From positions 1-53,984 of the forward strand of contig NZ_BSYI01000038.1 in NCBI RefSeq assembly GCF_030270585.1: 53,984 nucleotides of DNA, read 5' to 3'. The notes under the pieces were generated by a model. That model was not told the origin of the DNA, made no database searches, and worked only from the letters and a program-made list of their open reading frames with translations. This stretch comes from Paralimibaculum aggregatum. GTDB taxonomy: Bacteria; Pseudomonadota; Alphaproteobacteria; Rhodobacterales; Rhodobacteraceae. Of this stretch, positions 19,861-51,717 are shown in pieces. Position 1 is the stretch's first letter; each line of letters opens with the position of its first letter. The position numbers were made by a program, and so were the translations under genes.

Positions 19861-20214
19861 CTACGAGGCTTCCGCGCCGCCCTTCTGCCCGAGGCGCACC
19901 AGGACGCGCCCATCCTCCACCCTGGTCTCGAAGACCTCGATGGCGACGGTGGCCGGCGCGCCGACGGCGCGGCCCGTTCGCGCGCAGAACCGGCCCTGGT
20001 GAAGCGGGCATTCGATCACGCCGTCGATCACCATGCCGTCGGTGAGCGGCTCGTGCTCGTGGCTGCAATACCCCGATGTCGCGAAGATCTCGCCGCCGGA
20101 GAGGCAGACCGCCACGAGGCGGCCATCGACCTCGATGGTCTCGATGAATTCCTCTTCGAGCGCATCGACCGCCAGGGCGTCGTGCCATTCGGCAGCAGTT
20201 CCGGATTCCGACAT
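19861..20214 (-). CDS. mocE: MocE-type Rieske [2Fe-2S] ferredoxin
   Basis: The 117-residue protein is a single Rieske domain with the cluster ligands in CSH (C50, H52) and CPLH (C69, H72), followed by GRFCARTGRAVGAPA. It is an electron carrier, most likely for the fatty-acid-desaturase-like oxygenase encoded just upstream. This pairing is that of MocE and MocD of rhizobial rhizopine catabolism. The ATG at 20214 has GGAG eight bases upstream. A GTG nine bases further up overlaps the desaturase stop codon, so the two genes are translationally close. Pair identity is confident; the rhizopine substrate is not, because other moc genes are absent. Confidence 0.85.
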   Translation of the reverse strand: MSESGTAAEWHDALAVDALEEEFIETIEVDGRLVAVCLSGGEIFATSGYCSHEHEPLTDGMVIDGVIECPLHQGRFCARTGRAVGAPATVAIEVFETRVEDGRVLVRLGQKGGAEAS

Positions 20215-20219
20215 CCCGC

Positions 20220-21209
20220 TCACTCCGCGGCGACGGCGCCGCTCCGGCCCCGCTCGCTCTTCCAGGTCACGCCTTCGTGGCGGGAGATCTTCGACAGCAC
20301 ATCGGCATGCACGGACGGATAGCTTTCGCCGATCGGGTGCAGCCGGTCGCCGACCTCGTCATGCAGCCGCGCCAGCGCGTGGTAGGGCACCATCGGGCAG
20401 ATGTGGTGCTCGGCGTGATAGGACATGTTCCAGTGCAGGAAGTGGACGAGCCGGGTGGTGCGGGTGGTCCGCGTGTTGCGCCGCAGGTCGCCGCCCTCGT
20501 CGCATTCGGCGTGCTCGGCGATCCGGAAGAAGCGCATCAGCGGCTCGCCGACGAGCCGCGGCACCACCCAGAGCCAGAGCGGCAGCAGGCTGCCCGTGGC
20601 GATCGCCGCGGCCGCGATCCCGCCATAGAGAACGAGGATCACGCGGGCCTCGAAGATGACCTTCGGAACCTCGCTCTCGGGCAGGAAGCGGCGATGCTCG
20701 GGCTTGATGTAGCCGAAGGGATGCAGGAGGAACCAGCCGAGCCCGCGCTTCCAGAACACATAGCCGCTCAGATAGACGACATAGTCCCAGACCGTCATGC
20801 GCTCGGGCATCATGTCGGGGTCGTAGCCGCGGATCTGCGTGTAGGTATGGTGCCGGGCGTGCTCGTAGCGGAAGATCGTCGGCGGCACCATGTAGATCAG
20901 GCAGACGATCCAGTAGACGGTCTCGTTCAGCCACCTCGTTCGGAACGGCGTGCCGTGGCTGCATTCGTGCACGGGCGCGAAGAGGAAGGCCATGACGACC
21001 GCATGGGCGAACATTGCCGGCACCACCCAGAGGGTGCCGAGCGCCATCCAGGTCAGCGTTCCGGTAAACGCGATCAGGCCGATATGCCCCGCGAAGTGGA
21101 GAAGGGCCGTGCGATCCGTGCGCTTGGTGTAGGGTTTCAACGACTTGCGGTCGATCACCAGCTCTCGCCCGAAGGCGCGCTCGGTCTGTTCCTGCATCGT
21201 TTCTGACAT
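20220..21209 (-). CDS. mocD: MocD-like membrane di-iron desaturase/hydroxylase
   Basis: The 329-residue integral membrane protein of the fatty acid desaturase superfamily has all three histidine boxes: HECSH (81-85), HARHH (117-121) and HAEHH (about 277-281), separated by hydrophobic pairs of helices. It uses a di-iron centre and O2 to hydroxylate, demethylate or desaturate a substrate, with electrons from the Rieske protein encoded next. The ATG at 21209 has AGGAA seven bases upstream; an in-frame ATG at 21224 is an alternative. It lies 240 bp after the PanB-like gene on the same strand and probably belongs to the same catabolic unit, perhaps with its own promoter in the AT-richer gap. Confidence 0.85.
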   Translation of the reverse strand: MSETMQEQTERAFGRELVIDRKSLKPYTKRTDRTALLHFAGHIGLIAFTGTLTWMALGTLWVVPAMFAHAVVMAFLFAPVHECSHGTPFRTRWLNETVYWIVCLIYMVPPTIFRYEHARHHTYTQIRGYDPDMMPERMTVWDYVVYLSGYVFWKRGLGWFLLHPFGYIKPEHRRFLPESEVPKVIFEARVILVLYGGIAAAAIATGSLLPLWLWVVPRLVGEPLMRFFRIAEHAECDEGGDLRRNTRTTRTTRLVHFLHWNMSYHAEHHICPMVPYHALARLHDEVGDRLHPIGESYPSVHADVLSKISRHEGVTWKSERGRSGAVAAE

Positions 21210-21450
21210 GCTGTGGTTCCTCATGATCGTCGGTGCGCGGGTGGGCTCAAGCGGGCGACGGCCGGAAGCTCGGAGCGCGATTCATCCCTTTTTCTAATCT
21301 TTGTCGTGAAGGCGCCGTCTGCATGGCTTCGCGCGATTCATCGAAGTTTCCTCGGCCTCATCCATGAGCCTCCGCCGGATTCACCATCAATGCCGCCCGG
21401 CGGGCAAACCAGTAATCCCAAGGATATATCAATCCATCTAATGCAAAGGC

Positions 21451-22242
21451 TCAGACCCGATCGATCTCCATGAGAAAGTCCTCGAGTTCGCCCTCGGGCA
21501 TCGCGACGCCGTGGGCCTTGGCCGGAAAGCCGCCCGAACCGACCTCGTGGCGAAACTCCCGGAAGGCGTCGATGCGCTCCTGCTGCAGGCGGCGGTGCTC
21601 GGCGGCAAAGTCGCGATAGGCCTTGGCGTGGCGGGGCAGACGGTCCGTCCCGCTGCCGAGCACGTCGCGGGCGAAGAGGCATTGCACGTCGCAGCCCGCC
21701 CCGGCCCCGAGCGACATCGTGATCAGGGTCGTCCGGCGCGTGATCTCGGCCGCGACCGCTTCGGGAACCACCTCGATCTCGATGCCCGCGGCGCCGGCGG
21801 CTTCATAGGCCTTCGCCTGGCGGAAGAGCTCGATCGCCTGCTGCGCCGTCCGGCCGACAGCGCGGTAGCCGCCGGTCCATGTCCGCCACGGCGGCACGAG
21901 GCCGATATGGCCGATGACAGGGATGCCCTCGCGCGCCATTTCCGAGACCATATGGATGCTGGCGGCGGTGTAGACGGTCTCGGCGCCGTCCTCGATCGCC
22001 CGGAACGCCTCGCGCATCGCCTCGGTCGCGGTGACATGGCGGCCGTAGGGCAGCCCGAAGCGGAAGTGGCGCGACGGGGCCGCGCCCGGCAGGTGCCGGG
22101 TTTCGGGAGCGTAGACGGTGCCGATCATGTCGATCCCCGCCGCCTCCGCCGCGGCCGCGTCGTCCGCGCTGTCGATCCGCAGGAATGTGAGCTGCGGCCC
22201 GCCCTTGCGGTCGCGCAGCTCCTTGATCGTCAATCCTGCCAT
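21451..22242 (-). CDS. PanB-fold enzyme, diverged from ketopantoate hydroxymethyltransferase
   Basis: The 263-residue protein aligns along its whole length with PanB (3-methyl-2-oxobutanoate hydroxymethyltransferase; PEP-mutase/isocitrate-lyase superfamily): IPVIGHIGLVPPW, GGYRAVGRTAQQA and AAGIEIEVVPEAV. Only the catalytic glutamate near the C-terminal strand (E157, in EVVP) is kept. The metal-binding Asp of the GDSLG motif is replaced (IGTVYAP), the second Asp is lost (FGLPYG), and the glutamate of VKIEGG becomes TAAS. It is therefore unlikely to make ketopantoate. It sits between an SDR gene and mocD-like genes in a TRAP operon, so a catabolic lyase or aldolase role is inferred. Confidence 0.75.
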   Translation of the reverse strand: MAGLTIKELRDRKGGPQLTFLRIDSADDAAAAEAAGIDMIGTVYAPETRHLPGAAPSRHFRFGLPYGRHVTATEAMREAFRAIEDGAETVYTAASIHMVSEMAREGIPVIGHIGLVPPWRTWTGGYRAVGRTAQQAIELFRQAKAYEAAGAAGIEIEVVPEAVAAEITRRTTLITMSLGAGAGCDVQCLFARDVLGSGTDRLPRHAKAYRDFAAEHRRLQQERIDAFREFRHEVGSGGFPAKAHGVAMPEGELEDFLMEIDRV

Positions 22243-22280: not shown

Positions 22281-23051
22281 TCACTTGGCGGTGAACCCGC
22301 CATCGACGAACAGCATCTGGCCGGTCACGTAGTCGGAGGCCGGCGATGCGAGGAACAGCGCGGGGCCAACCATGTCGCCGAGTTCCCCATTGCGGTGGAC
22401 GGCGGTCCTCTCGGCGTTGCGCGCCATCAGGGCACTGTCGCGATAGAGATCCGCGGTCATCTCGGTCGGGAAGTAGCCGGGCGCCAGCGAGTTGCAGCAG
22501 ATGCCGAAGCGCGACCATGCCTCCGCCATGGCGCGGGTGAGCTGGGCGACGCCGCCCTTGCTCGCGCCGTAGGGGATGCTGTCCGGCATCGCCCGCACGG
22601 CCTGCACGGAGGCGATGTTGATCACGCGCCCCCAGCCACGCTCCTGCATGTCCGGCACGAGCGCGCGCGCCAGGAAGAACGGCGCCGAAAGGTTGAGCCC
22701 GATGGTGGAGGACCAGCTTTCCGGCGTCACCGCGTCCCATGGCTGGCGGAAGTTGAGCCCGGCGGCGTTCACCAGGATGTCCGGCGCGCCGAAGGGGGCC
22801 CGCGCCCTGCCGGCCAGGTCGTCCATATCCGCCCAGGCGGCGAGATCCGCCGACATGGCCGAACCGCGGCCGCCGGCAGCCTCGATCTGCGCGACCGTGT
22901 CGGCCAGACGGTCCTCGCGCCGCGCGAGGGCGACCACCGCCGCCCCGGCGCCCGCCAGCGTGACCGCGAGGGTGCGGCCGATGCCCGAGCTCGCCCCGGT
23001 GACCAGCGCCACCCGGCCGCCCAGATCGAAGAGATCGGGGATACCGGCCAT
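22281..23051 (-). CDS. SDR-family NAD(P)-dependent oxidoreductase
   Basis: This is a classical short-chain dehydrogenase of 256 residues: TGASSGIG (18-25), NAAG (95-98), catalytic Asn 120, Ser 148 (INIASVQ) and the YGASK motif (Y161, K165), with a C-terminal VTGQMLFVDGGF typical of the fabG/gluconate-dehydrogenase-like group. It would oxidise or reduce an alcohol/ketone, here presumably a step in degrading the compound imported by the adjacent TRAP system. Its ATG overlaps the stop codon of the TRAP large-subunit gene (TGATG), which indicates translational coupling. Confidence 0.92.
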   Translation of the reverse strand: MAGIPDLFDLGGRVALVTGASSGIGRTLAVTLAGAGAAVVALARREDRLADTVAQIEAAGGRGSAMSADLAAWADMDDLAGRARAPFGAPDILVNAAGLNFRQPWDAVTPESWSSTIGLNLSAPFFLARALVPDMQERGWGRVINIASVQAVRAMPDSIPYGASKGGVAQLTRAMAEAWSRFGICCNSLAPGYFPTEMTADLYRDSALMARNAERTAVHRNGELGDMVGPALFLASPASDYVTGQMLFVDGGFTAK

Positions 23052-24361
23052 CACCGCACCGCCCAGAGCGAGAGGTTGGGCAGGAAGGCGAGGATCAGGG
23101 TGGTGGCGAGCATCGCCAGCACATAGGGCACCGCCTGGCGCGCGACCGAGAGCACGGGCGCCCGGGTGAGGCTCGAGACCACGAACAGGTTGAGCCCCAG
23201 CGGCGGCGTGATGAAGCCGACCCCGAGCGCCGTCACCATCACGATCGAGAAATGGATCTCGTCCATTCCGATCTCCTGCGACAGCGGATAGAGGATGGGA
23301 GCCAGCACGACGATGTTCGGCGCCGCCTCCATCACGCAGCCGGCAAGGATCAGGATGCCGATCATCATCAGGGTGATCAGGGTCGGATCGTCGGTCAGCG
23401 AGGTGACGAAGACGACGAAACCCTGCGGCACCTGAAGCGCCGCCAGCGTCTGGGCGAGCGGCAGCGACATCGCGATGATGGGCAGGATCATGCCCACCAC
23501 CTTGGCCGAGCTCTCGAGCATGCTCGGGAAGTCCGCGACCGTGAGCGTGCCGATCGCGAGCCCGATGAGGATCGTCGTGACCACGGCGACCGCTGCCGCC
23601 TCGGTGGGCGTGAAGATCCCGGTATAGATGCCGCCGAGGATCACCACCGGCACGATCAGCGCATAGCGGCCCGCCCAGATCGCCCGCGCCACACGGGCGA
23701 ACGAGAACGCGGCGGCCTGGTTCTCGTAGCCGCGCATGCGGTTGATCGCGACATTGGTGAGCATGATCGAGACCATGATCATCACGCCGGGCACCGCGGC
23801 GGCGATGAACAGCGTCGAGGACGAGATGCCGAGGATCAGGCCGATGATGATGTAGGCGATGGAGGGCGGGATCAGGATTCCCGTGCAGGCGCCGGAGGCG
23901 ACCAGGGCGCAGGCATAGTTCCGCGGATAGCCCTGCCTGACCAGGCGGTCGATGGTCATCCGCCCGATCGCGGCCGCACCTGCCGCATCGGAGCCCGAGA
24001 TGCAGGAGAAGAACCCGCAGCACAGGACGGTCGCCGTGCCGAAGCCGCTCCGCAGCGTCCCGGTGAGCGCATCGGCGATGTCGAGCAGCTTGTCGGAAAG
24101 CCCGCTGCGCACCAGCACGTCGCCGGTCAGCACGAAGAGCGGCACGGCGATCAGCGCGAAGCTGTCGATCCCGTCGAAGAGGGACTCCCCGAGCAATGAC
24201 AGCGGCACGACCTCGGTGGCCAGGAGGAGCGCCAGCGCGCCCAGGCCCAGCACGACCCAGACGCGGACGCCCAGCACCAGCAGGACCACCATCCCGATCA
24301 TCGGCAGATAGAAGGTCCAGCCGAGCTCGGCGGCGCCGGCTTGTTCGAATTGCAGGTAAAT
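23051..24361 (-). CDS. dctM: TRAP transporter large permease subunit (DctM)
   Basis: This is a DctM-family membrane protein with about twelve helices, including PLFVLTGDVLVRSGL, SGACTGILIPPSIAYIIIG, YTGIFTPTEAAAVAVV and GVGFITPPLGLNLFVVSS. With DctQ it forms the ion-driven membrane part of the TRAP carrier. The first in-frame ATG (24301) gives 416 residues but leaves an unusually short N-terminus. The frame extends upstream without a stop to an ATT at 24361, which has GGAG eight bases before it and lies 12 bp after the dctQ stop. I therefore propose a rare ATT start (436 residues), or an ATG lost by mutation. Confidence 0.88.
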   Translation of the reverse strand: MYLQFEQAGAAELGWTFYLPMIGMVVLLVLGVRVWVVLGLGALALLLATEVVPLSLLGESLFDGIDSFALIAVPLFVLTGDVLVRSGLSDKLLDIADALTGTLRSGFGTATVLCCGFFSCISGSDAAGAAAIGRMTIDRLVRQGYPRNYACALVASGACTGILIPPSIAYIIIGLILGISSSTLFIAAAVPGVMIMVSIMLTNVAINRMRGYENQAAAFSFARVARAIWAGRYALIVPVVILGGIYTGIFTPTEAAAVAVVTTILIGLAIGTLTVADFPSMLESSAKVVGMILPIIAMSLPLAQTLAALQVPQGFVVFVTSLTDDPTLITLMMIGILILAGCVMEAAPNIVVLAPILYPLSQEIGMDEIHFSIVMVTALGVGFITPPLGLNLFVVSSLTRAPVLSVARQAVPYVLAMLATTLILAFLPNLSLWAVR

Positions 24362-24373
24362 GGCTCTGTCTCC

Positions 24374-24934
24374 TCAGTCGAAAATCTGCTCGCCCTCGTA
24401 GACCGGACGGCCGTGGCGCAGATCGCTCACGTCGCGGCGGATCGACTGGACGAGCCTGAGCATGATCAGCAGGAACCCGAACGGCACCGCCACGAGGAAC
24501 CAGGCGAGGCTGATCTCGAGGCCATGCGTCACGGAGCCGAACCGGATCGAGGTCAGCACCGGGTCGATCGACCAGTAGAGCGCGAAGACGGCCAGCAGGA
24601 CCGCCATCAGGTCGCCGAAGATGTTGGCGACGGCCCGCGCGCGCCGCGGCAGCAGCCGCACGGCGAAGTCGATCCGGATGTGGCAGCGGTCACGCACGGC
24701 GACCGCACAGCCGATCCAGGCGAGATAGACGAAGGCGTAGCGGGCGGCCTCCTCGCCCCAGAGCGAGGAGTAGGACAGCGCGAAGCGCCGGATCACCTCG
24801 ACCGCGATCGTCAGCACGATGAGCGTGTAGAAGGTGAGCAGCAGCCATCGCTCGCCGTTGCGGTCAATCGCCCGCAGACAGCGAGTGAGGCGGGAGCCTT
24901 CCGGCTCTCCGCCCCCGGCACGATCGGGCTGCAT
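24374..24934 (-). CDS. dctQ: TRAP transporter small permease subunit (DctQ)
   Basis: The 186-residue protein has four membrane segments typical of DctQ: WLLLTFYTLIVLTIAVEV, then YAFVYLAWIGCAVAVRD, IFGDLMAVLLAVFALYW and ISLAWFLVAVPFGFLLIML. The conserved Trp-Glu-Glu-Ala region (WGEEAARY) and the RDRCHIRID loop between helices two and three are present. The ATG lies two bases after the dctP stop and the gene ends 12 bp before the proposed dctM start, so P, Q and M are one transcript. Confidence 0.9.
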   Translation of the reverse strand: MQPDRAGGGEPEGSRLTRCLRAIDRNGERWLLLTFYTLIVLTIAVEVIRRFALSYSSLWGEEAARYAFVYLAWIGCAVAVRDRCHIRIDFAVRLLPRRARAVANIFGDLMAVLLAVFALYWSIDPVLTSIRFGSVTHGLEISLAWFLVAVPFGFLLIMLRLVQSIRRDVSDLRHGRPVYEGEQIFD

Positions 24935-24936
24935 GC

Positions 24937-26097
24937 TCAGACGTCGTGCACGTAGTAGACGCCTCGGGTGTTGGCGGCCTCGTTCAGCTTCTCGAAGACC
25001 TCCAGGGAGCCCGCGAGTTCCTTCTTGAACGCGTCCCAGGCCGGGAGGTGATGGCCGGCCTTCGCGACCCATTGCGCGAGCTCGTCCTCGGTCGGCACGT
25101 AGAACTGCACGCCGCCGGATGCCAGATCGGCCATCGAGTAGGCCCGCGCTGCCGGAACCTTGGCGAGGTTCTGGTGCATCGTGGTCTCGCTGGCGAAGAC
25201 GATGCCCTCCCGGATGTCGGACGGCAGCCCGTTGAACCATTCGAGATTGCAGGAATAGACTTGGGTGTTGGGAACCGTCTGCGCGAAGGTGACCCAGGAG
25301 AGGGTGTTCCTGAAGCCGAAGATCTGCAGCCCCTGGACCGACGGATCGAGCGCGTCGGCAACGCCCTGCTTCAGCGCCGAGGGGGTCTCGCCCCAGGCGA
25401 TCGGCGTCGGGTTCGCGCCGAGCAGCTGATAGAGTTTCGAGAGGATCTTGGATCCGGGGATGCGGAACTTCACGCCATCGAGCTGGTCCGGTGTCCGGAT
25501 CGGCTCCTCGAAGCCGCGCCGCAGCGACACGGTGCGCGGATCGACCGTCACATACCAGAGCGCCTTGAAGCCGCGTGCCTCGATCATCGGGTTCACCTCG
25601 TCGGCCCAGGCCTTCGAGGTCACGAGGTTCACCGCCTGCTGGTTCTTGCCGCACCAGTAGGGAATGTTGACGAGATCGACCACCGGCGCGAAGGGCGCGA
25701 AGTTCGACAGCGAGTGCTGCGCCGACTGGATCGTGTTGGCCTGCACCTTCTGCGCGAGCTGGCTGCCGGCGCCGAGCTGACCGCCGGGCACGAGCTTCAC
25801 ATAGACCCTGCCGAGGGTCATGTTCTGGATGTTCTCCTTGAAGTCGAGCTGCATCAGCGGCATGCCGCGGCTCGCCCCGATCACGTAGGGCGTGGCCACG
25901 ATCATGGTGTGCTCTGCGGCGGCCTTCCTCTCGCGCTCCTCCTTCGCGGTCTGCGCCATCGCCTCCGACGACAGGAGCGCGCCCCCCGCCGCGCCCACGA
26001 GCGCCGCCGTCAGCCCGTACCGCCCGCTCGCCCGCAGGAACGCGCGGCGCTCCTCCGATGCCAGGCCGGTGTTCTTCGTATCTGCGTGATGGTCCAC
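24937..26097 (-). CDS. dctP: TRAP transporter substrate-binding protein (DctP)
   Basis: The 386-residue protein starts at GTG with GGGAGGAC close upstream. It has a twin-arginine-type signal (ERRAFLRASGRYGLTAALVG, from about residue 16) ending near SSEAMAQ, which suggests export in folded form. The mature part shows the DctP fold, with the conserved YVTVDPRTVSLRRGFEEPIR hinge region (R205/R206-like substrate arginines), VKFRIPGSKI, and WGETPSALKQGVADALDPSV, where the family normally has a P-x-E-x-Y/x-A-L-x-x-G motif. The ligand is probably an organic acid, as for most TRAP systems. It is the first transport gene of the operon controlled by the divergent LysR. Confidence 0.9.
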   Translation of the reverse strand: MDHHADTKNTGLASEERRAFLRASGRYGLTAALVGAAGGALLSSEAMAQTAKEERERKAAAEHTMIVATPYVIGASRGMPLMQLDFKENIQNMTLGRVYVKLVPGGQLGAGSQLAQKVQANTIQSAQHSLSNFAPFAPVVDLVNIPYWCGKNQQAVNLVTSKAWADEVNPMIEARGFKALWYVTVDPRTVSLRRGFEEPIRTPDQLDGVKFRIPGSKILSKLYQLLGANPTPIAWGETPSALKQGVADALDPSVQGLQIFGFRNTLSWVTFAQTVPNTQVYSCNLEWFNGLPSDIREGIVFASETTMHQNLAKVPAARAYSMADLASGGVQFYVPTEDELAQWVAKAGHHLPAWDAFKKELAGSLEVFEKLNEAANTRGVYYVHDV

Positions 26098-33228: not shown

Positions 33229-33233
33229 AGAAT

Positions 33234-36200: not shown

Positions 36201-36386
36201 GCGAGTTCCGCACTCTGGCCAATGGGCGACACCAGGGAGGATGCCGCGGCGCTGCAGAACGGCTTGTCGAGCGGTCAGGCCTCGACCGAAGGCGATCCGA
36301 TCGTGGCATCGATCTCAGCGATGTTTGCGCGCGACGGTTCTCCGCCACCCGATTTCGCATCCGACGGGTCAGTGGTGTTTGACTGA
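33234..36386 (+). CDS. zorD: ZorD, SNF2-type helicase effector of Zorya
   Basis: The 1050-residue protein has about 500 residues of Zorya-specific N-terminal region followed by a SNF2/SWI2 helicase core. Walker A lies in ADEQGLGKTLQT (near residue 540), the DExx box is DEIQ (near 670, FDEIQALKNP), GLTGTPIENS is motif III, and motifs V/VI lie in LVLGPKAAGTGLTLT and QCNDRIHRIGQTQP (near 944). ZorD is the nucleic-acid-acting effector. I chose the ATG at 33234, five bases after the zorC stop; a TTG at 33198 overlapping zorC would add 12 residues. The gene is intact and closes the type I operon. Confidence 0.92.
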   Translation: MAFDFSHDANGITLTMLPDRRSVIGRLLAPRAPVSLDALSANDRALAFALADLRALADSHPGELTIGTDRIQISHRIAAGLDQRAAEALGLPPLVDLVFRTDVEGSLGTSSFRLRHEWLKLGRRQAPRRIGAILETSDGPRRLPAWLLEAVEVAEAFVPGSDEAAHWEALARFRQALDPGIRISARDRAARVSITDFLQGLEVRLADRFSISPGRNARGEEDFEIVPFSEQALAARSDGETGISEAEGELGGAQLGRFQRRVRTSGALAAYRVGDGSYLVVDRGARPVLEVMSRMQNAPHAERAAFMRNPVPQITEAVEKALREAGKLEGLSPAGEEEMIEAAVGPCLVETEEYGAYSARVTGKTAYVPPAQSVSESQTTWLPEHFPDPLIRKMRGMSPEALDATCEGIREAIAEGRETVDLDGHTLPADEDTLNAVKLQADANRAAAEQPPVDQAEAAEALAASEEAAPDRGPPIVVATRDNFEELGWRPERGPRTALIAPTEPEGIRSTLKAHQSEALAWQIAAWRAGLPGVLNADEQGLGKTLQTIAFLRWLKSHMARPEAEMRGPVLVVAPTSLLENWEAEVALHLEEPGLGHLMRLYGSALGGFKKTGARGFDTQSGEERLDFSLLHEAIAEGRAHRFWILTTYTTLANYQHSLARIPFSAVVFDEIQALKNPASLRAVAARAVNADFRIGLTGTPIENSAVDLWAIMDQLCPGALDTLAEFRGRYGTPSADNMEELHGRVFRAQADLPPLALRRLKETVARDLPSKTRRLHPRLMPLAQAAAYEGARDKLAEGARGSALKMLHHIRTVSVHPDLDAELSDDDFIATSARLRASFAILDGIRQRRERALVFIEHRRMQYRFAELARQRYGLNRIDIINGDTPIRDRQAIVRHFQRHLVEDSGFDLLVLGPKAAGTGLTLTAATHVIHLSRWWNPAVEEQCNDRIHRIGQTQPVTIHVPMAIHQSRRENSFDCLLHSLMTRKRRLASSALWPMGDTREDAAALQNGLSSGQASTEGDPIVASISAMFARDGSPPPDFASDGSVVFD

Positions 36387-44146: not shown

Positions 44147-45004
44147 TCAGGCTCCCATCCGGTCGGCAATGGCGACGATGCGGTGCATTTCGCGCAGCAC
44201 CGGCTTCTCGATCAGCTTGCCGTCGATCACGACCAGCCCGGTGTCCGCCGCCTCGAACTCCGTGATGACCCGGCGCGCGCGCGCGATCTGGTCCGCGGTC
44301 GGCGTAAACACCTCGTTCAGAGCGGGGATCTGCTTGGGATGCACCGATCCCTTGCCGGCAAAGCCCAGGTCACGCGCCTTCTCCGCCTCGGCGCGCATGC
44401 CCTCGGGGTCGGCGAGGTCAAGGTAGGGCACGTCGATGACGTCGAGCCCCGCGCCGGCCGCCGCATGGACCACGCGCGAGCGGGCATGGAGCAGCGGCTC
44501 CCAAGCGTTGCGACAGCGCAGTTCCGCCGCCATGTCGACGCCGCCGAAGAACAGCGCGTCGATGCGGTCCGAGCAGTGGGCGATGTCCTGCGCGGCCTCG
44601 AGCCCCGCATTGGTCTCGATGATGACATGCAGACGGGTGGCATGGCCGGCCTCGGTCAACAGCCCGTCGAGGATCACGACCTCGTCCGGCGTGCGCACCT
44701 TGGGCATCATCAGCGCGGGCGGCGGCGTCCGTGTGGCCAGGATTGCGCTCACATCCTCGATGCCGAACCGTTCGCGCATCGAGTTGATCCGGACGATCCG
44801 TTCGACCCCGTCGTCCGCCTGGGGCCTTTCGAACAGCGCGAGGGCGTTGCGCCGCGCCTCCGCCTTGTCCTTCGGCGCGATGCCGTCCTCCAGCTCGACG
44901 CAGACGATATCGGCGCCGCTGTTCAACGCCTTGGGGAACATGTCCGGCCGCAGCCCGGGCGTGAAGATGAAGCTGCGGCGCGGCCGCGGCGTGCGTCCGG
45001 TCAT
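44147..45004 (-). CDS. CitE/HpcH-family CoA-ester lyase
   Basis: The 285-residue protein of the CitE-like TIM-barrel family shows RRSFIFTPGLRPDMF (9-23), the ELEDG metal-site motif (37-41), IIETNAGL (128-135), FGGVD (153-157) and GKGSVHPKQ (217-225). Relatives cleave or make malyl-, citramalyl- or beta-methylmalyl-CoA, releasing acetyl-CoA or glyoxylate. Its ATG overlaps the stop of the DmdA-like gene (ATGA), so the two are co-translated. In this operon it could take the last carbon-carbon cleavage step of the imported compound. The exact substrate cannot be read from sequence. Confidence 0.88.
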   Translation of the reverse strand: MTGRTPRPRRSFIFTPGLRPDMFPKALNSGADIVCVELEDGIAPKDKAEARRNALALFERPQADDGVERIVRINSMRERFGIEDVSAILATRTPPPALMMPKVRTPDEVVILDGLLTEAGHATRLHVIIETNAGLEAAQDIAHCSDRIDALFFGGVDMAAELRCRNAWEPLLHARSRVVHAAAGAGLDVIDVPYLDLADPEGMRAEAEKARDLGFAGKGSVHPKQIPALNEVFTPTADQIARARRVITEFEAADTGLVVIDGKLIEKPVLREMHRIVAIADRMGA

Positions 45005-46137
45005 GCGAACCGCCCCCAGAACCTGTCCTTCACCACCGCGTCACGCGGGCCCACCGGCGTCTGCACCACGAGTGCGGTGCCCGCGTCCCAGTGGCTGCTG
45101 GCGATCAGGCCGATGGCGGCGTTGCAGTCCCAGCTGTAGGCGCGGCAGGAGGACGAGATCCTCCCGACACTCCGGCCGCCTGCCGTGACGTCCCAGAACG
45201 TCTGTTGCGGCGGAAGCGGCGGACCAGCGATCTCCACCGGACGCAGCTGCCTTCGCGGCTCGCGCTCTCGCCGCAGCGCCGCCCAGCCGAGGCAGCCCAG
45301 ATCGCGGTCCAGCTCGCAGATTCTGCCCAGCCCTGCCTCCATCGGCGTCATGTCGGGCGTGATGTCGCTCTGGTACGACAGCATCCCGGACTCGATGCGT
45401 TCCGACTGGTGCGGCACGCCGGTGCGCACATCGAGGTCGCGCCCGGCTTCCATCAAGCGGTCCCACAGCGCCTCGGCGCCCTCGGCCCCCTCGAAATACA
45501 GCTCGAATCCACCCTGGGTCGAAAAGCCCGACCGGGCGAGGATCATCGGCCTGCCGTCCACATCCACCGGCATGTAACGGAAGAAGCGCAGATCGCGCAC
45601 CTCGTCGCCCCAGACCCTGGCAGCGAGCTCGTCCGCCTTCGGTCCCTGGATGGCCAGCGGATACACCGGCGGCTCGGACACGCGCACGTCCAGATCCAGC
45701 GCCGCCGCGGCGCCCTTGTAGAACAGCATCAGGTCGCTGACGGAGATCGAGACCCAGAACCTGTCCTCGCCCAGCCGCAGCAGCACCGGATCGTTGGTCA
45801 TGCCGCCATCGCCATCGACGGTCGGGATCTAATAGCACGTGTCGTTGCGCATCCGGCCGATGTCGCGGGGCGTGGACATCTGCACCAGCCGCGCGGCGTC
45901 GGGGCCGGAAATCTCGATCTGCCGTTCGCAGCCGACGTCCCACAACTGCACCGCCGACTTGAGGTGATGGTACGTCTCCTCGGCCTGTCCGAAATGCGAG
46001 GCGATCAGCATGTGATTGTAGACCAGGTAGCCATTCGGACCCTGCGCGTGGCTCCTGGCCCAGAACGGCGATCGGCGCATCCGCGCCGTCAGTGGCATGG
46101 TGGCGGTGGCCGAAGGGCTGCCGGCGTCCAGAGACAT
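45001..46137 (-). pseudogene. DmdA-like (GcvT-fold) THF-dependent demethylase interrupted by one amber codon
   Basis: One frame of 379 codons matches the DMSP demethylase DmdA and related GcvT-fold enzymes end to end: YNHMLIASHFGQAEETYHHL, VQLWDVGCERQIEISGPDA, LAIQGPKADELAARVWGDEV, FFRYMPVDV, GFSTQGGFELYFEGAEG and ERIESGMLSYQSDITPD. At 45829-45831 a TAG (codon 103) replaces the second residue of a CYYxPTVD-type motif, where relatives have tyrosine; everything on both sides is conserved. Such enzymes move a methyl group from a substrate to tetrahydrofolate. The gene is two bases shy of the marR stop upstream and overlaps the lyase gene downstream. Recent inactivation, a sequencing error or readthrough are the options. 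Confidence 0.82.
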
Positions 46138-46143
46138 CACACC

Positions 46144-46632
46144 TCACTCCCGAAGCGCGGCGGCGTACTGCGCCGCCTTTCGCAATAGCGCGCCGAGAGT
46201 CCGCCGCTCCCCGGCGTCCAGGCCGGCCAGCACTTCTTCCTGCCGGGCCGCCATGTAGGCCGCGGCCTTCTTGTGCAGCGCGCGCCCGGCCGGGGTGATC
46301 CGCAGCCGCGCCTGGCGCCCGTCCTCGGGGTCCGGCGCGCGTTCGATGTAGCCCTCGGCCAACGTCCGGTGCACGGCGCGCGATATGGTGTTGCGCGGCT
46401 GGCGCGAGATCGTTGCCACGTCCTGCGCGGTGAGTTCGGGGTAGTGCGACAGGCAGGCCAGCACCGTGTATTCCGGCCGGATCAGCCCGAAGTCGCGTTT
46501 GATCGCGTCGTAGACCGGGTTGATGATCGCGTTGCCGAGATAGGTGATCCGGAACGCATCGGGAAACTCGACGGTATCGAAAAGCGCCGTGAGGTCCCGG
46601 GACCCCGAGGGATCGCTGCTGCCGTCCGACAT
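46144..46632 (-). CDS. MarR-family regulator of catabolic module B
   Basis: The 162-residue protein contains the MarR winged helix: RPEYTVLACLSHYPELTAQD, ISRQPRNTISRAVHRTLAEG and the wing YIERAPDPEDGRQARLRITP, with dimerisation helices at both ends. The ATG at 46632 has GAGG upstream. Longer frames start at up to 46746 but would cross the operator. It heads the leftward arm (marR, demethylase, lyase) and diverges from the PanB-like/Rieske/TRAP arm. A perfect palindrome between the two starts is its probable binding site, so the regulator likely represses both arms until ligand is present. Confidence 0.9.
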   Translation of the reverse strand: MSDGSSDPSGSRDLTALFDTVEFPDAFRITYLGNAIINPVYDAIKRDFGLIRPEYTVLACLSHYPELTAQDVATISRQPRNTISRAVHRTLAEGYIERAPDPEDGRQARLRITPAGRALHKKAAAYMAARQEEVLAGLDAGERRTLGALLRKAAQYAAALRE

Positions 46633-46711
46633 AGCTGTGACCTCGCTGCCGTGAAACGCTGTCGGGCAGAAGAGCATCGCCACGGCCTCCGGACAATGGG
46701 CATTGGACATA

Positions 46712-46769: not shown

Positions 46770-47630
46770 GTGCCGGGGGAACGCGCGAAGCTGACCATTC
46801 CCGACCTCGCCGCGAAGAAGGCGGCGGGGGAGCGGCTGGTGATGGTCGCCGTGGGCGAGGTGCTGACCGCGACCTGGGCCGAGCGGGCGGGCGTCGACAT
46901 TGTCGGCGTCGGCGACAGCCTCGGAATGACCCTGCACGGGCACGAGAACACGCTGGCGATCACCGTCGACCAGATGATCGACCATTGCCGCGCCGTGCGC
47001 CGCGGGGCGCCCAGGACGCTGGCCCTGGTGTCGATGCCGTTCGGATCCTATGCGACACCGGACATCGCCGTGCAGAACGCCCTTCGGCTCATGAAGGAAG
47101 GCGGTGCGGATGCGGTGAAGCTGCAGGCCGGCCGGGAAGGCGCTCACATCATCAGGGCCGTCGCCGATGCCGGCGTGCCCGTGATGAGCCATGTCGGGCT
47201 CCTGCCGCACAGGGTGCACATGCTCGGCGGCTTCAAGACGCAAGGCCGCACCGCCGAGGCGGCGATGGAGATCGTCGAGAATGCCCGCGCCATCGAGGCG
47301 GCGGGCGCCATCGGGCTGGAGATCGAGGCCATGCCCTACGAGGTGGGCAAGGCGGTCGACGAGGCGGTGTCGATCTTCACCTTCTCCATCGGCGCCGGGG
47401 CGGCGGGCACCTGCCAGCTCCTGAACGGCTACGACCTGCTGGGCGCCTTCGACACCTTCAAGCCGAAATTCGCCAAGCGCTAAGCGAACATGGCCGAGAT
47501 CGCGACCAAGGCCTTCGCCGATTTCGCCGCCGAGGTGCGGGCGGGCACGTTTCCCGATGCCGACCACAGCTACCAGATGAACCCGGAAGAGGCCGAGCGC
47601 TTTGCCAGGATGCTCGCCCAGGGAGGATGA
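46770..47630 (+). pseudogene. PanB-fold enzyme interrupted by one ochre codon near its C-terminus
   Basis: From a GTG with GGGGAG upstream, 237 codons are open. A TAA at 47481-47483 follows PKFAKR, where PanB proteins have tyrosine (KFxKRY), and the same frame continues (MAEIATKAFADFAAEVRAGT, then FPDADHSYQM) to 47630. Without the stop the product is 286 residues. GDSLGM (48-53), GGFKTQGR and the catalytic-type Glu 186 (EAMP) are kept, but the second metal Asp is Ser 88 (LVSMP) and the substrate-site Glu is Gln 119 (VKLQAG). True ketopantoate synthesis is therefore unlikely even if intact. Loss of the last 50 residues probably affects oligomerisation rather than the barrel. Confidence 0.78.
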
Positions 47631-47631
47631 G

Positions 47632-48717
47632 ATGAACAAGCCAACGGACGTGCAGCCGAACGGCCAGCGCATCCCCAACGGGATGTTGCAGGACAACTAC
47701 CCCCGCAACATGTGGTGGGTCGCCGCGCACGCGGACGAGGTGACGACGAAGCCGCTGGCGCGCTGGCTCCTGGAAACGCCGGTGGTGCTCTACCGGCTGG
47801 AGGACGGCTCGCCCGCGGCGCTCTACGACCGCTGCCCGCATCGCTGGGCGCCGCTCAGCGAAGGCCACGTGGCCGGCGACAGGATCGTCTGCCCCTACCA
47901 CGGGATGGAGTTCGACACCGGCGGCAACTGCACCAAGGCGCCGACACAGAAGATAATGCCGAAGACGGCGCAGATCCCGTCGTTCCCGGTCCGGGAGGCT
48001 GGGGCCTACATCTGGATCTGGATGGGCGATCCCGAGGCCATCGATGGCGAGCCGCCCGACGTGTCCTACCAGGTCGACCCGGACTGGAGCTTCGTCCACG
48101 GCTACTACGAGGTGGCGGCAAACTGGGTGCTGATCCGGGAAAACGTTCTGGACCTCACCCACATCGCCTTTCTGCACAAGAACACCTTCAAGCAGGACGA
48201 CTGGATCACCGCCCCCGACACCTACATGGAGGGCGAGACGGTGTGCTACGAGCAGGAGTTCGACCTCGCGCCCCTGTCGCCGCTGTTCTGCGCCGGCATG
48301 GGGCTGCCCGAGGACAAGCCCATCAAGCGGGTCCAGAAGGGCCGGATGCCGTCGCTGGCGATCTCGTTCTCCGACTGGAACGTGCACGACCCGAACCCGG
48401 AGCCGGGCCGCCGGGCCGACTTCATCATGCGCGGCTGCCACATCGTGACCCCGTCCACGCGCGGGCACACCCACTACTTCTGGGCCGCGGCCTTCGACGT
48501 GCCGGAGATCTCGGACGAGGTGGCGGCAAAGACCAAGGCCAGTGTCACGGCGGCCTTTGACGAAGACAAGCACTTGCTGGAGCGCCTGCAGGACAAGATC
48601 GCGAAGGACCCGCGGGGCCTCGATTACCTCGAGGTGACGCTCGGCGCCGACGGCGCCGGCATCAAGGTGCGGCAGATCCTGAACAAGAAGCTTGCGGCGG
48701 AAGGCCGGTCGCTCTGA
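47632..48717 (+). CDS. Rieske non-haem iron oxygenase, alpha subunit (VanA-like)
   Basis: The 361-residue protein has GGAGG five bases before the ATG. The Rieske domain carries CPH (C68, H70) and CPYHG (C87, H90). The catalytic domain has ENVLDLTHIAFLH (170-182), giving the facial-triad histidines H177 and H182. Size and motifs match vanillate O-demethylase-type oxygenases, which hydroxylate or oxidatively demethylate substrates. No reductase gene is nearby, so electrons must come from a partner encoded elsewhere. It follows the PanB-like gene directly (stop TGA at 47628-47630) and precedes the TRAP genes, so one transcript is likely. Confidence 0.92.
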   Translation: MNKPTDVQPNGQRIPNGMLQDNYPRNMWWVAAHADEVTTKPLARWLLETPVVLYRLEDGSPAALYDRCPHRWAPLSEGHVAGDRIVCPYHGMEFDTGGNCTKAPTQKIMPKTAQIPSFPVREAGAYIWIWMGDPEAIDGEPPDVSYQVDPDWSFVHGYYEVAANWVLIRENVLDLTHIAFLHKNTFKQDDWITAPDTYMEGETVCYEQEFDLAPLSPLFCAGMGLPEDKPIKRVQKGRMPSLAISFSDWNVHDPNPEPGRRADFIMRGCHIVTPSTRGHTHYFWAAAFDVPEISDEVAAKTKASVTAAFDEDKHLLERLQDKIAKDPRGLDYLEVTLGADGAGIKVRQILNKKLAAEGRSL

Positions 48718-48788: not shown

Positions 48789-49814
48789 ATGCGCGCGAAC
48801 AGACGGACCCTGTTGGGACTGGCCGCCGCCGCGGCGTTGGCCGCCGCGGGCGGCGTACAGGCGCAGGAGACCACCGAACTCAAGATCCAATCGATCTGGC
48901 AGGCCGGGTCGATCAACCAGCAGGTGTTCGAGCGGTTTGCCGAGAACGTTGGCAAGGCCAGCGGCGGCCGGCTGACCGTGACGCCGCTGCCCGTCGGCGC
49001 GGTGGTCGCCTACAACGAGACGCTCGAGGCGGTCGGCAGTGGCATCCTCGAGGGCCAGCATTCCGCGCCCGCCTATTTTGCCGGCCGGGAGCCAGGCATG
49101 GCGCTGCTCGCCGACCTGAACGCGGCCTACGAGAACCCCTACCAGCTGACGGACTGGGTGTACGAACATGGCGGGCTGGAAATCGCGCGGGAAATGTATG
49201 CCGATTTCAACCTGTTCTACGTCGGCCCGGTGCTGTGGGGCATGGAATCGATCCCCTCGAAGAAGCGCGTGGCGACGGTGGAGGACTTCCAGGGCATGAA
49301 GCTGCGGATGCCGGAGGGTACGGCGTCCGAGATATTCCGCAACATCGGCGCGGCGCCGGTGAACATTCCCGGCGCCGAGGTCTACACCTCGCTCGAACGC
49401 GGCGTGATCGACGGGGCGGACTGGGGCACGCTGTCGATGAACCAGGATCTCGGGTTTCACAAGATCGCGCCGTATCCGATCTACCCTGGCCTCCATTCGA
49501 TGCCGATGGGCGAGGTCGCGATCAACCTCGATACCTGGAACGGGCTGCCGGACGACCTGAAGACAATCTTCGAGATGGCGGTGCGCGACTTCAACTATGA
49601 CATGATCCGCACCATGGCGTCGGCGGACCTCGAAGCGGTCGCGGCGGCCAGGGCCGACGGGGCCGAGCTGGTGGACTGGTCGGACGAGGAGCGGCGGAAA
49701 CTCCGCCGCGTCGCGGCCGAAGTCTGGCGCGAGTTCGGCGGCCGCAGCGAGATGGCCGGCAAGGTGGTCGACAGCCACGTCGCCTACCTGAAATCGCTCG
49801 GGCTGATCGAGTGA
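48789..49814 (+). CDS. dctP: TRAP transporter substrate-binding protein (DctP)
   Basis: The 341-residue protein has GGGAGGAG upstream of the ATG and a twin-arginine-like signal (MRANRRTLLGLAAAAALAAA) ending near GGVQAQ. The mature part is DctP-like: FERFAENVGKASGGRLTVTP, GMKLRMPEGTASEIFRNIGA, VNIPGAEVYTSLERGVIDGA (the family's P-x-x-E-x-Y-T-A-L-x-R-G-x-I-D motif) and MPMGEVAINLDTWNGLPDDL. It belongs to the subgroup that binds mono- or dicarboxylic 2-oxo acids (YiaO/DctP7-like), though the ligand here is unknown. It is not closely similar to the DctP of module A. Confidence 0.92.
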   Translation: MRANRRTLLGLAAAAALAAAGGVQAQETTELKIQSIWQAGSINQQVFERFAENVGKASGGRLTVTPLPVGAVVAYNETLEAVGSGILEGQHSAPAYFAGREPGMALLADLNAAYENPYQLTDWVYEHGGLEIAREMYADFNLFYVGPVLWGMESIPSKKRVATVEDFQGMKLRMPEGTASEIFRNIGAAPVNIPGAEVYTSLERGVIDGADWGTLSMNQDLGFHKIAPYPIYPGLHSMPMGEVAINLDTWNGLPDDLKTIFEMAVRDFNYDMIRTMASADLEAVAAARADGAELVDWSDEERRKLRRVAAEVWREFGGRSEMAGKVVDSHVAYLKSLGLIE

Positions 49815-49895
49815 GTTGAGACCGGGCGGCGGCGGTCTCTCCCTCGCCGCCGCCCGGCGCCCACATGCAAGCCAACTGACCCGGGGAACCCGCGC

Positions 49896-50402
49896 ATGCC
49901 CGACCTGAGCGTCGTCGACCGGCTGCAAGACCTGCTCGGCCGCGTCATCGCCGTCGTCTTTCTCGCTGTCGCCGCGGCGATCGCCTACGAGGTCGTCGCC
50001 CGCTACCTTCTCAACGCGCCGACGATCTGGGCGCACGAACTGACCGCGACGCTGGTCGCGGTGGCCTTCCTGTTCGGCGGGCCCTACGCGATGGTGCGCG
50101 GCGAGCATATCCGGATCACCTCGCTCTACATGCACTTCCCGCCGCGATTGCGGCTGATGGCCGACATCGTCGCGGCGCTGGTCACACTGTTCTACATCGG
50201 AGCGATGATCTACGCGGCCTGGATCGTCGCCGGCCGGGCCTGGTCGCGCATGGAAACCTCGGCTTCGGCCTGGAACCAGCCGACGCCGGTGGTGATCAAG
50301 ACGGCGCTGGTGGTCGCCTCGGCACTGATCGCCGTGCAGACGCTGTTGCAGCTGGCGCGGCACCTGGGCCTTGTCCGCCCGGCACCGGCACCGACGGACT
50401 GA
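49896..50402 (+). CDS. dctQ: TRAP transporter small permease subunit (DctQ)
   Basis: The 168-residue protein has four membrane segments (VIAVVFLAVAAAIAYEVVA, ELTATLVAVAFLFGGPYAM, LMADIVAALVTLFYIGAMI, VIKTALVVASALIAVQTLL) and the DctQ marker RYLLNAPTIWAHELT in the first loop and RGEHIRIT in the second. It starts 81 bases after dctP and ends just before dctM. With DctM it forms the membrane domain of the carrier. Confidence 0.92.
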   Translation: MPDLSVVDRLQDLLGRVIAVVFLAVAAAIAYEVVARYLLNAPTIWAHELTATLVAVAFLFGGPYAMVRGEHIRITSLYMHFPPRLRLMADIVAALVTLFYIGAMIYAAWIVAGRAWSRMETSASAWNQPTPVVIKTALVVASALIAVQTLLQLARHLGLVRPAPAPTD

Positions 50403-50406
50403 GCGC

Positions 50407-51717
50407 TTGGACATCGGCACCATCTCGCTGCTGATCGTCGCGGGGATCTCGATCCTCCTCGCGATCGGCGTGCCGCTGGCATTTGCCACCGGCGCCGTGG
50501 CGATGGTGACCACGCTGCTCGCCTACGGACCCAACGGGCTGACCATCGTCGCCAGCCGCTCCTACACGCTGGTCAGCGAGTTCGTGCTGGTCGCGGTGCC
50601 GATGTTCATCCTGATGGCCTCGATCCTCGAACAATCCGGCGTGGCGCGCGATCTGTTCCGCGCCATGCACCTTGTCGCGGGGCGGCTGAAGGGCGGGCTC
50701 GGGCTGCAGACGCTGGCTGTCGCCGTCGTGCTGGCGGCAATGACCGGGATCATCGGCGGCGAGATCGTGCTCCTGGGTCTGATCGCGCTGCCTCAGATGC
50801 TGGCGCGCGGCTACGACCGCAAGCTCGCCATCGGCATCGTTTGCGCCGGCGGATCGCTGGGCACCATGATCCCGCCCTCCATCGTCCTTGTTATCTACGG
50901 GCTCACGGCCAACGTCTCGATTGGGGACCTGTTCGTCGCCTCTCTGGTCCCCGGCCTGCTGCTGGCCGGGCTCTACGCCGCGTATGTGCTGATCCGCTGT
51001 CACCTGGACCCGGCCGCCGGCCCGCCGGCCGGCATCGAGGAGCGGCAGATACCCCTCGCAGAGAAGCTGCGCCTCGCGCGCGGGCTGGTCCTGCCGGTGC
51101 TGGTGATTGTCTGGGTGCTCGGCACGATATACGCCGGCATCGCCTCGGTCAGCGAGGCGGCGGCCATGGGCGTGATCGGCGCCGCCGCCTCGGCCGTGAT
51201 GCGCGGCGAGATGACATGGGCAATGCTGCGCGGCGCGCTCTGGCGCACCATGAGCACCTCGGGGCTGCTGATCTGGCTGACCATCGGCGCCAATGCACTG
51301 ATCGGCGTTTACAACCTGCTGGGCGGGGCGAAGTTCATCCAGAGCTCGATCACGGGGCTGGAGCTCGACCCGCTGGGCGTGATCCTGCTGATGATGCTGG
51401 TCCTGATCGTGCTGGGCCTGTTCATCGACTGGATCGGCATCGTCCTGCTGACCATGCCGATCTTCGTGCCGATCGTCGAAAGCTTGGGCTACTCGGCGGT
51501 TTGGTTCGGCGTCCTGTTCTGCATGAACATGCAGATTTCCTATCTTTCGCCGCCGTTCGGCCCGGCCTGCTTCTATCTCAAGTCGGTGGCGCCGCCCGAG
51601 ATCGAGCTGGGCGAGATCTTCCGCGCAATGTGGCCCTTCATCGCGCTTCAGGCCATCGGGTTGATCCTGGTCCTCCTGAACCCGGGCATCGCGCTGTGGC
51701 TGCCCAGCGTGCTGTGA
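50407..51717 (+). CDS. dctM: TRAP transporter large permease subunit (DctM)
   Basis: The 436-residue polytopic protein of the DctM family shows FVLVAVPMFILMASILEQSG, MTGIIGGEIVLLGLIALPQM, GGSLGTMIPPSIVLVIYGLT, YAGIASVSEAAAMGVIGAAA, FIDWIGIVLLTMPIFVPIVE and MNMQISYLSPPFGPACFYLK. The start is probably the TTG at 50407, four bases after the dctQ stop; no strong ribosome site is present, so translation is likely coupled to dctQ. It is the last intact gene of catabolic module B. Confidence 0.92.
   Translation: MDIGTISLLIVAGISILLAIGVPLAFATGAVAMVTTLLAYGPNGLTIVASRSYTLVSEFVLVAVPMFILMASILEQSGVARDLFRAMHLVAGRLKGGLGLQTLAVAVVLAAMTGIIGGEIVLLGLIALPQMLARGYDRKLAIGIVCAGGSLGTMIPPSIVLVIYGLTANVSIGDLFVASLVPGLLLAGLYAAYVLIRCHLDPAAGPPAGIEERQIPLAEKLRLARGLVLPVLVIVWVLGTIYAGIASVSEAAAMGVIGAAASAVMRGEMTWAMLRGALWRTMSTSGLLIWLTIGANALIGVYNLLGGAKFIQSSITGLELDPLGVILLMMLVLIVLGLFIDWIGIVLLTMPIFVPIVESLGYSAVWFGVLFCMNMQISYLSPPFGPACFYLKSVAPPEIELGEIFRAMWPFIALQAIGLILVLLNPGIALWLPSVL

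Follow-up and report, generated by a model that had tools for sequence, protein, structure and literature searches.

The window analysed here, i.e., the whole stretch of 53,984 nucleotides taken from the forward strand of contig NZ_BSYI01000038.1 of Paralimibaculum aggregatum (assembly GCF_030270585.1), carries two genes, starting at 46770 on the forward strand and lying at 21451 on the reverse strand, that code for proteins related to PanB. By their matches to PF02548 both have the PanB fold, as the first-pass annotation of this DNA had held, and model matches also bear out its statement that each gene adjoins a tripartite ATP-independent periplasmic (TRAP) transporter and an iron oxygenase. 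Both proteins lack, however, the Asp and the Glu that occupy positions 84 and 114 in PanB, and both fall outside the PanB clade. Based on sequence comparison, it is shown that they belong to two clades, A (the gene at 46770) and B (the gene at 21451), which together with a third clade, C, stand apart from true PanB. The active site of all three has been rebuilt, and their genes are linked to non-heme iron oxygenases, those of clade A also to GcvT/DmdA-like genes.

In the protein at 46770 the Asp of the GDSLG motif is retained (D49), as are K117 and H141. E186 is the Glu of catalytic type, with an additional Glu, E184, standing two residues ahead of it. The second metal Asp is replaced by S88 and the Glu of the VKIEGG motif by Q119, which we take to be the positions of D84 and E114, respectively, of Escherichia coli PanB, where D45 and D84 are the metal-binding Asp residues. 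In the protein at 21451 the GDSLG Asp is gone, the second Asp is Gly and the Glu of VKIEGG is Ala, while E157 is retained, again with an additional Glu, E155, two residues ahead of it. The alignment thus confirms what had been read before from the letters of both genes, namely Ser, Gln and the retained E186 in the one and the missing GDSLG Asp, Gly, Ala and E157 in the other. The pair of Glu residues is called ExE below.

It is noted that the gene at 46770 is not one open frame up to 47630, as had been supposed: a TAA in the same frame, at 47481-47483, stops it once 237 residues have been read. Since the intact close relatives have 284-288 residues counted from the aligned start, the product is without its C-terminal part. 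A second in-frame stop, TAG, lies in the GcvT gene of the same module. The two stops in one cluster point to decay or to assembly error, either of which is simpler than recoding for both, and the clade A module of this genome looks decayed unless the stops are assembly errors. Note also that at two other loci, L120 (Mameliella sediminis) and L121 (a metagenome-assembled genome, MAG, of Roseovarius), the clade A and Rieske genes are broken over several frames, so that the window genome is not the sole case of loss of the cluster.

The features of the two modules are collected in Table 1. In the clade A module the MarR, GcvT and HpcH/HpaI genes are divergent from the PanB-fold gene. The clade B module runs in one direction, in the order DctP, small permease, DctM, short-chain dehydrogenase/reductase (SDR), PanB-fold, MocD-like and MocE-like genes, with all frames open.

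Table 1. Features of the two PanB-fold modules in the window
Feature	Position	Strand	Remarks
MocE-like Rieske ferredoxin	19861..20223	-	recurrent clade B neighbour
MocD-like membrane enzyme (FA_desaturase)	20220..21224	-	recurrent clade B neighbour
Clade B PanB-fold gene	21451..22242	-	263 aa, no internal stop; ExE = E155/E157; PF02548 136 bits
SDR-family dehydrogenase	22281..23051	-	between PanB-fold and DctM genes
TRAP transporter of clade B module	23051..26097	-	DctM 23051-24301 and DctP 24937-26097 by model match
TRAP small permease, clade B module	24374-24934	-	inferred from position
HpcH/HpaI-type aldolase / citrate-lyase-like protein	44147..45004	-	model match
DmdA-like GcvT (tetrahydrofolate-dependent demethylase family)	45001..46137	-	in-frame TAG 45829-45831
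MarR-family regulator	46144..46710	-	homologues recurrent next to clade A genes
Clade A PanB-fold gene	46770..47483	+	237-aa open frame, GTG start, in-frame TAA as end; PF02548 261 bits
Ser codon S88, site of second metal Asp	47031..47033	+	from alignment
Gln codon Q119, site of Glu of VKIEGG	47124..47126	+	from alignment
ExE signature codons E184-I185-E186	47319..47327	+	E186 = catalytic-type Glu
Rest of clade A PanB-fold frame past TAA	47484..47630	+	48 codons, then stop
Rieske oxygenase, VanA_C type, clade A partner	47632..48717	+	domain match; best solved match dicamba O-demethylase DdmC
TRAP transporter of clade A module	48789..51717	+	DctP 48789-49814 and DctM 50407-51717 by model match
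TRAP small permease, clade A module	49896-50402	+	inferred from position

Clade A was sampled by a profile search of genome contigs with an alignment of close relatives. Among the best 80 of 463 relatives, 54 have 61-94% identity and constitute clade A, after which the identity drops to 38-46% in rows that are true PanB by their residues. The tree was then calculated by a quick search with 107 rows (28 of clade A, 23 of clade B, 3 of clade C and 53 of true PanB), identical rows being merged and a decayed PF02548 copy in the window genome as well as the frameshifted L120 and L121 being omitted; 28 of the 54 clade A rows are in. Clades A, B, C and true PanB each occupy one side of a branch, with SH-aLRT (approximate likelihood-ratio test) supports of 98, 100, 100 and 92, respectively, and clades A and B, into which the two window genes fall, are about 32% identical. 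The earlier proposal of a distinct PanB-fold subfamily thus stands in that neither window protein goes with true PanB, while a single subfamily for both genes is ruled out by the tree, which places them in two clades.

The ExE pair is present in all aligned rows of the three clades (57/57 in A, 41/41 in B and 8/8 in C) and in none of the 53 true PanB rows, these 53 containing one gene twice (L006 and L176), and one class-wide row of the clade B set (L227), which is true PanB by residues, being left out of both counts. The pair is therefore diagnostic in these rows, which it divides into A, B and C on the one hand and true PanB on the other with no exception. An Asp at position 84 or a Glu at position 114 is found in 0 of the 106 aligned rows of the clades, position 114 being Gln in every row of A and C and other residues in B. 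D45 is retained in clades A and C and gone from most B rows; Lys112 is lost in clade B, where up to four active-site positions are lost. Glu179, the added one, and Glu181 do not vary in any of the three clades, and His136 hardly does. Within a given clade the substitutions vary little or not at all, and they are thus not due to chance. From PanB itself (PF02548; solved structures 1m3u, 3vav and 1oy0) the clades hence differ in the substituted D84 and E114, in the extra Glu179 and in the position in the tree.

In the window genome PF02548 has five places: a true PanB, by residues, on contig C9, a clade C gene on C10, the two window genes and the decayed copy on C16. The last (L008, 8753-9442) retains an ExE-like stretch, with the other active-site residues gone, and may be what is left of a clade A-like gene. 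The C10 gene passes the cut-offs of both TIGR00222 (280 vs 207.55) and PRK00311 (303 vs 272). The truncated 46770 product also passes the former, a panB equivalog model, with 218.8 and does not reach the latter (248.9), while the 21451 product, with 97.5, is under the TIGR00222 cut-off. TIGR00222 thus does not separate clades A and C from PanB.

The neighbours were compared by tblastn, requiring 50 bits and 30% of the query within the fetched stretch, with neighbours of the A, B and C genes as references, so that the test asks whether those particular families recur, its p-values being uncorrected for relatedness. Scored as iron oxygenases were Rieske, MocD, FA_hydroxylase and PhyH. A homologue of these lies near 37 of 54 clade A, 19 of 20 clade B and 3 of 3 clade C loci. 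By contrast, none was found near true panB, either in clade A genomes (0/18, one of the stretches being just 3.5 kb) or in distant ones (0/26), and none near a further 11 loci taken as controls, of which ten were loci of panC. The usual partners differ among the clades: for A they are a Rieske gene (32/54 loci) and a GcvT/DmdA-like gene (26/54), for B MocE (16/20) and MocD (14/20), and for C FA_hydroxylase together with TRAP (3/3). A DMGDH-like (dimethylglycine dehydrogenase-like) match lies near 3 of the 54 A loci, and in L082 and L182 a DMGDH-like FAD/GcvT protein adjoins the clade A gene.

TRAP transporters behave differently from the oxygenases. DctM lies near 7/54 A and 2/20 B loci; for true panB the figures are 4/26 at distant loci and 0/18 in the clade A genomes. 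TRAP is therefore rejected as a defining partner of A and B, even though it may be slightly enriched there over the same-genome control; in clade C it recurs (3/3 loci, and 4/5 class-wide). Thus, of the conserved association with TRAP and oxygenase genes that the first-pass annotation had proposed to look for in other genomes, the iron-oxygenase part recurs and the TRAP part is not conserved for A and B. Over the 198 genomes of the family, clade A (at least 68% identity) and the Rieske orthologue are present in the identical 8 genomes, a co-occurrence that is mostly linkage because the two genes are neighbours in seven of the 8. More telling is that among 11 genomes with the clade A gene set among housekeeping genes, the Rieske orthologue is on another contig in 6.

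Some clade B loci deserve mention in their own right. In L221 (8732-10422), from G405, a genome of 1.6 Mb with four clade B matches, two tandem clade B genes adjoin a PhyH-like gene, a second PhyH-like gene being recognised by eye. In L216 and L217, from streamlined genomes of 1.4 Mb, the clade B gene adjoins a MocD-like gene, and glutamine-synthetase-like and Rieske-like genes, named by eye only, are nearby.

We turn to pantothenate. That the window genes are not for its synthesis, as had been suggested, is upheld in that a true PanB (C9) and one PanC (C8) are encoded elsewhere in the window genome, and in that there is no clustering with true PanB. For clade A at large, no PanC is found in 28 of 56 clade A genomes (one genome being counted twice, as G172 and G240, and L090 of the 54 loci not being in the set), and panC lies near 0 of 54 clade A loci, compared with 12 of 18 true panB loci. 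By panC linkage and co-occurrence, clade A is therefore not tied to pantothenate synthesis, although in some of the 28 genomes that have panC it may have a role there. These 28 include 18 with a full true PanB, one with a true PanB split over two frames (G207) and nine with none or a remnant (G211, G219, G221 and G223-G228). It can be supposed from the last group, and from G207 as one more, that clade A still forms ketopantoate in some hosts, replacing a lost PanB. True PanB remnants adjoin an intact PanC in two of these genomes, directly and with 77 bits to PF02548 in G228 (L158, 3190-3567) and apparently, by eye, in G227 (L155, 4660-4938), both MAGs having an intact clade A gene. The lack of true PanB in the nine could come from pantoate uptake, assembly gaps or replacement by clade A, and since all nine genomes are MAGs, the missing PanB may be a gap. 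With, in addition, half of the clade A genomes having no panC, no clade A locus having panC nearby, and Asp84 and Glu114 substituted in every aligned clade A row, we regard such replacement as very improbable.

Comparison with known systems gives the following picture. For clade B the likeness is to MocDEF, the oxidative demethylase system of rhizopine catabolism: MocD-like and MocE-like genes adjoin the window gene and recur near the clade B loci, as counted above, and in Rhizobium leguminosarum pRltTA1B such genes are accompanied by one for an FAD oxidoreductase. Unlike the moc system, of which a PanB-fold gene is not known to be part, the clade B module of the window includes a TRAP transporter and an SDR, and no reductase was identified in it. 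The window MocD-like protein has no match among solved structures up to an E value of 0.01. For clade A, the window Rieske protein, with its VanA_C domain, is like dicamba O-demethylase DdmC and demethylases of the vanillate type, DdmC being its best match in a search against solved structures (172.7 bits across residues 23-351); it differs from them in that it reaches the equivalog cut-off of none of the nine NCBIfam models listed for it. The GcvT neighbours are like the dimethylsulfoniopropionate demethylase DmdA in scoring 307-375 bits to its model (306.7 for the part of the window gene behind its stop, and for two relatives of full length 363.6 and 374.7), whereas the NCBIfam cut-off is 410 bits, so that they are DmdA-like. 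A LigM/DesA-type aromatic O-demethylase was also considered for the window GcvT gene and rejected, DmdA being the far better model.

Among the search results listed from the open-licence literature, no paper on clades A, B or C was found, the nearest being a table on Filomicrobium sp. Y (PMC4433239), which lists one PanB-annotated and one GcvT gene on a 20.3-kb segment with methanesulfonate monooxygenase operons. This resembles the clade A loci in bringing a PanB-annotated and a GcvT gene together with a Rieske monooxygenase operon, the comparison being by the annotation in the table; a Filomicrobium MAG in our set carries a clade A gene (L083). Plasmid pRltTA1B of R. leguminosarum has in a row genes for a fatty acid desaturase, a Rieske 2Fe-2S protein and an FAD oxidoreductase, with a PanB-annotated gene as the last. 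On pMNOD02 of Methylobacterium nodulans, genes of the sterol desaturase family and of DUF6166 come before one that bears the name panB. Both PanB-annotated proteins have ExE, and the M. nodulans gene, which is clade C-like, is annotated with a pantothenate gene ontology term. For the PhyH partners, PMC12709175 reports O-demethylase activity of bacterial PhyH-like dioxygenases by complementation; the best solved match of our PhyH partner is the ectoine hydroxylase EctD.

What these partners have in common is then to be considered. They are of unrelated folds, and their closest characterised relatives include methyl-removing enzymes (DdmC, DmdA-type GcvT, PhyH-like proteins and MocDEF), from which the simplest common thread would be the handling of a one-carbon (C1) unit. 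PanB is described in PMC7770189 as transferring a C1 unit from methylene-tetrahydrofolate (methylene-THF) to an oxo acid, and a review (PMC7610986) describes E. coli PanB and its variants as aldolases that use formaldehyde as the electrophile and are independent of THF. We thus propose a pathway in which the partner enzyme would strip a methyl group from its substrate, giving formaldehyde or charged THF, and the PanB-fold enzyme would move a hydroxymethyl group, reversibly, from formaldehyde or methylene-THF onto an acceptor such as an oxo acid. In this reaction E179/E181 and His136 may have an acid-base role or hold a re-sited metal. We are highly confident that the clades are distinct and coupled to oxygenases; the C1 chemistry has somewhat less than an even chance in our judgement. 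The whole statement, that non-pantothenate PanB-fold clades are coupled to demethylation and handle the released C1 unit, is accordingly put at about even, the firmness of its first part being held down by its second. In its fullest form, with an unrecognised PanB-fold branch with a relocated carboxylate (ExE) having been repeatedly recruited to unrelated demethylases in marine and soil Alphaproteobacteria and capturing formaldehyde or methylene-THF by hydroxymethyl transfer, the proposal is offered tentatively, as possible rather than probable.

By contrast, it was proposed in the first-pass annotation that the PanB-fold enzyme acts on the carbon skeleton, as a lyase or retro-aldolase that would cleave a C-C bond after the oxygenase step on an imported compound. 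The barrel fold is common to the PanB-fold proteins and to the lyases of the phosphoenolpyruvate mutase / isocitrate lyase superfamily. Against this proposal, neither A nor B has a conserved linkage to TRAP; moreover, the partners belong to several folds, and demethylation rather than a particular carbon skeleton is the common feature of their known relatives. We consider skeleton cleavage unlikely, and since the nearest known relatives of the partners are demethylases, a role in one-carbon handling has no less probability than the cleavage of an imported skeleton. The PanB-fold proteins could also be non-catalytic, an accessory or a sensor of the oxygenase that binds, e.g., formaldehyde, folate or the substrate. 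That all clades lack two carboxylates of the metal site, and that B lacks as many as four active-site positions, is consistent with this, whereas catalysis fits better with the invariance of Glu181 and Glu179 and the near-invariance of His136, so that a non-catalytic role seems to us very unlikely.

A number of points weigh against C1 handling in partnership with demethylases, or against the coupling on which it is built. With the oxygenase references drawn from the A, B and C neighbourhoods, the comparison with the controls is tilted toward those loci. At 17 of the 54 clade A loci the test found no iron oxygenase: 11 are those among housekeeping genes, and six are others (L081, L082, L083, L099, L101 and L102), the contig of L081 ending inside its Rieske gene. 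GcvT-type neighbours are not exclusive, a DMGDH-like match lying near 2 of 18 true panB loci. Among 289 class-wide genomes, 4 have clade A, and the Rieske orthologue is present in one of them, the window genome; of the other three loci, one has a PhyH gene, one a DMGDH-like gene, and one, on a 3.9-kb contig, has nothing that was found. Class-wide, the tblastn test gives an iron oxygenase at 10/17 B and 4/5 C loci. Moreover, the partners may be other than demethylases, and the loss of metal carboxylates could mean that the aldol chemistry was lost as well. Because Lys112 is lost in clade B and Asp45 in most of its rows, the chemistry of this clade may differ from that of A and C, and clade B may do something else. 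For every member of the clades, the proposed C1-handling function is a prediction from sequences.

In addition, between the two modules, at 28557-36386 on the forward strand, the window has four consecutive genes with matches to models of the type I Zorya anti-phage defence system, namely ZorA, ZorB, ZorC and ZorD (best scores 896, 381, 572 and 1312 bits, respectively).

Finally, we note what the finding would mean. Because the clade A product and the clade C gene pass TIGR00222, and half of the clade A genomes are without panC, calls of panB can mislead: genes of these clades that bear the name of PanB can make genomes without pantothenate synthesis look capable of making vitamin B5. If the C1 role is true, the clades would form a new group of aldolases or hydroxymethyltransferases with formaldehyde as a possible substrate, and would provide, in marine and soil bacteria, a step that connects the demethylases with one-carbon metabolism. 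In the fullest form of the proposal this would be a dedicated C1-capture step of demethylation that has so far been hidden under the name panB.
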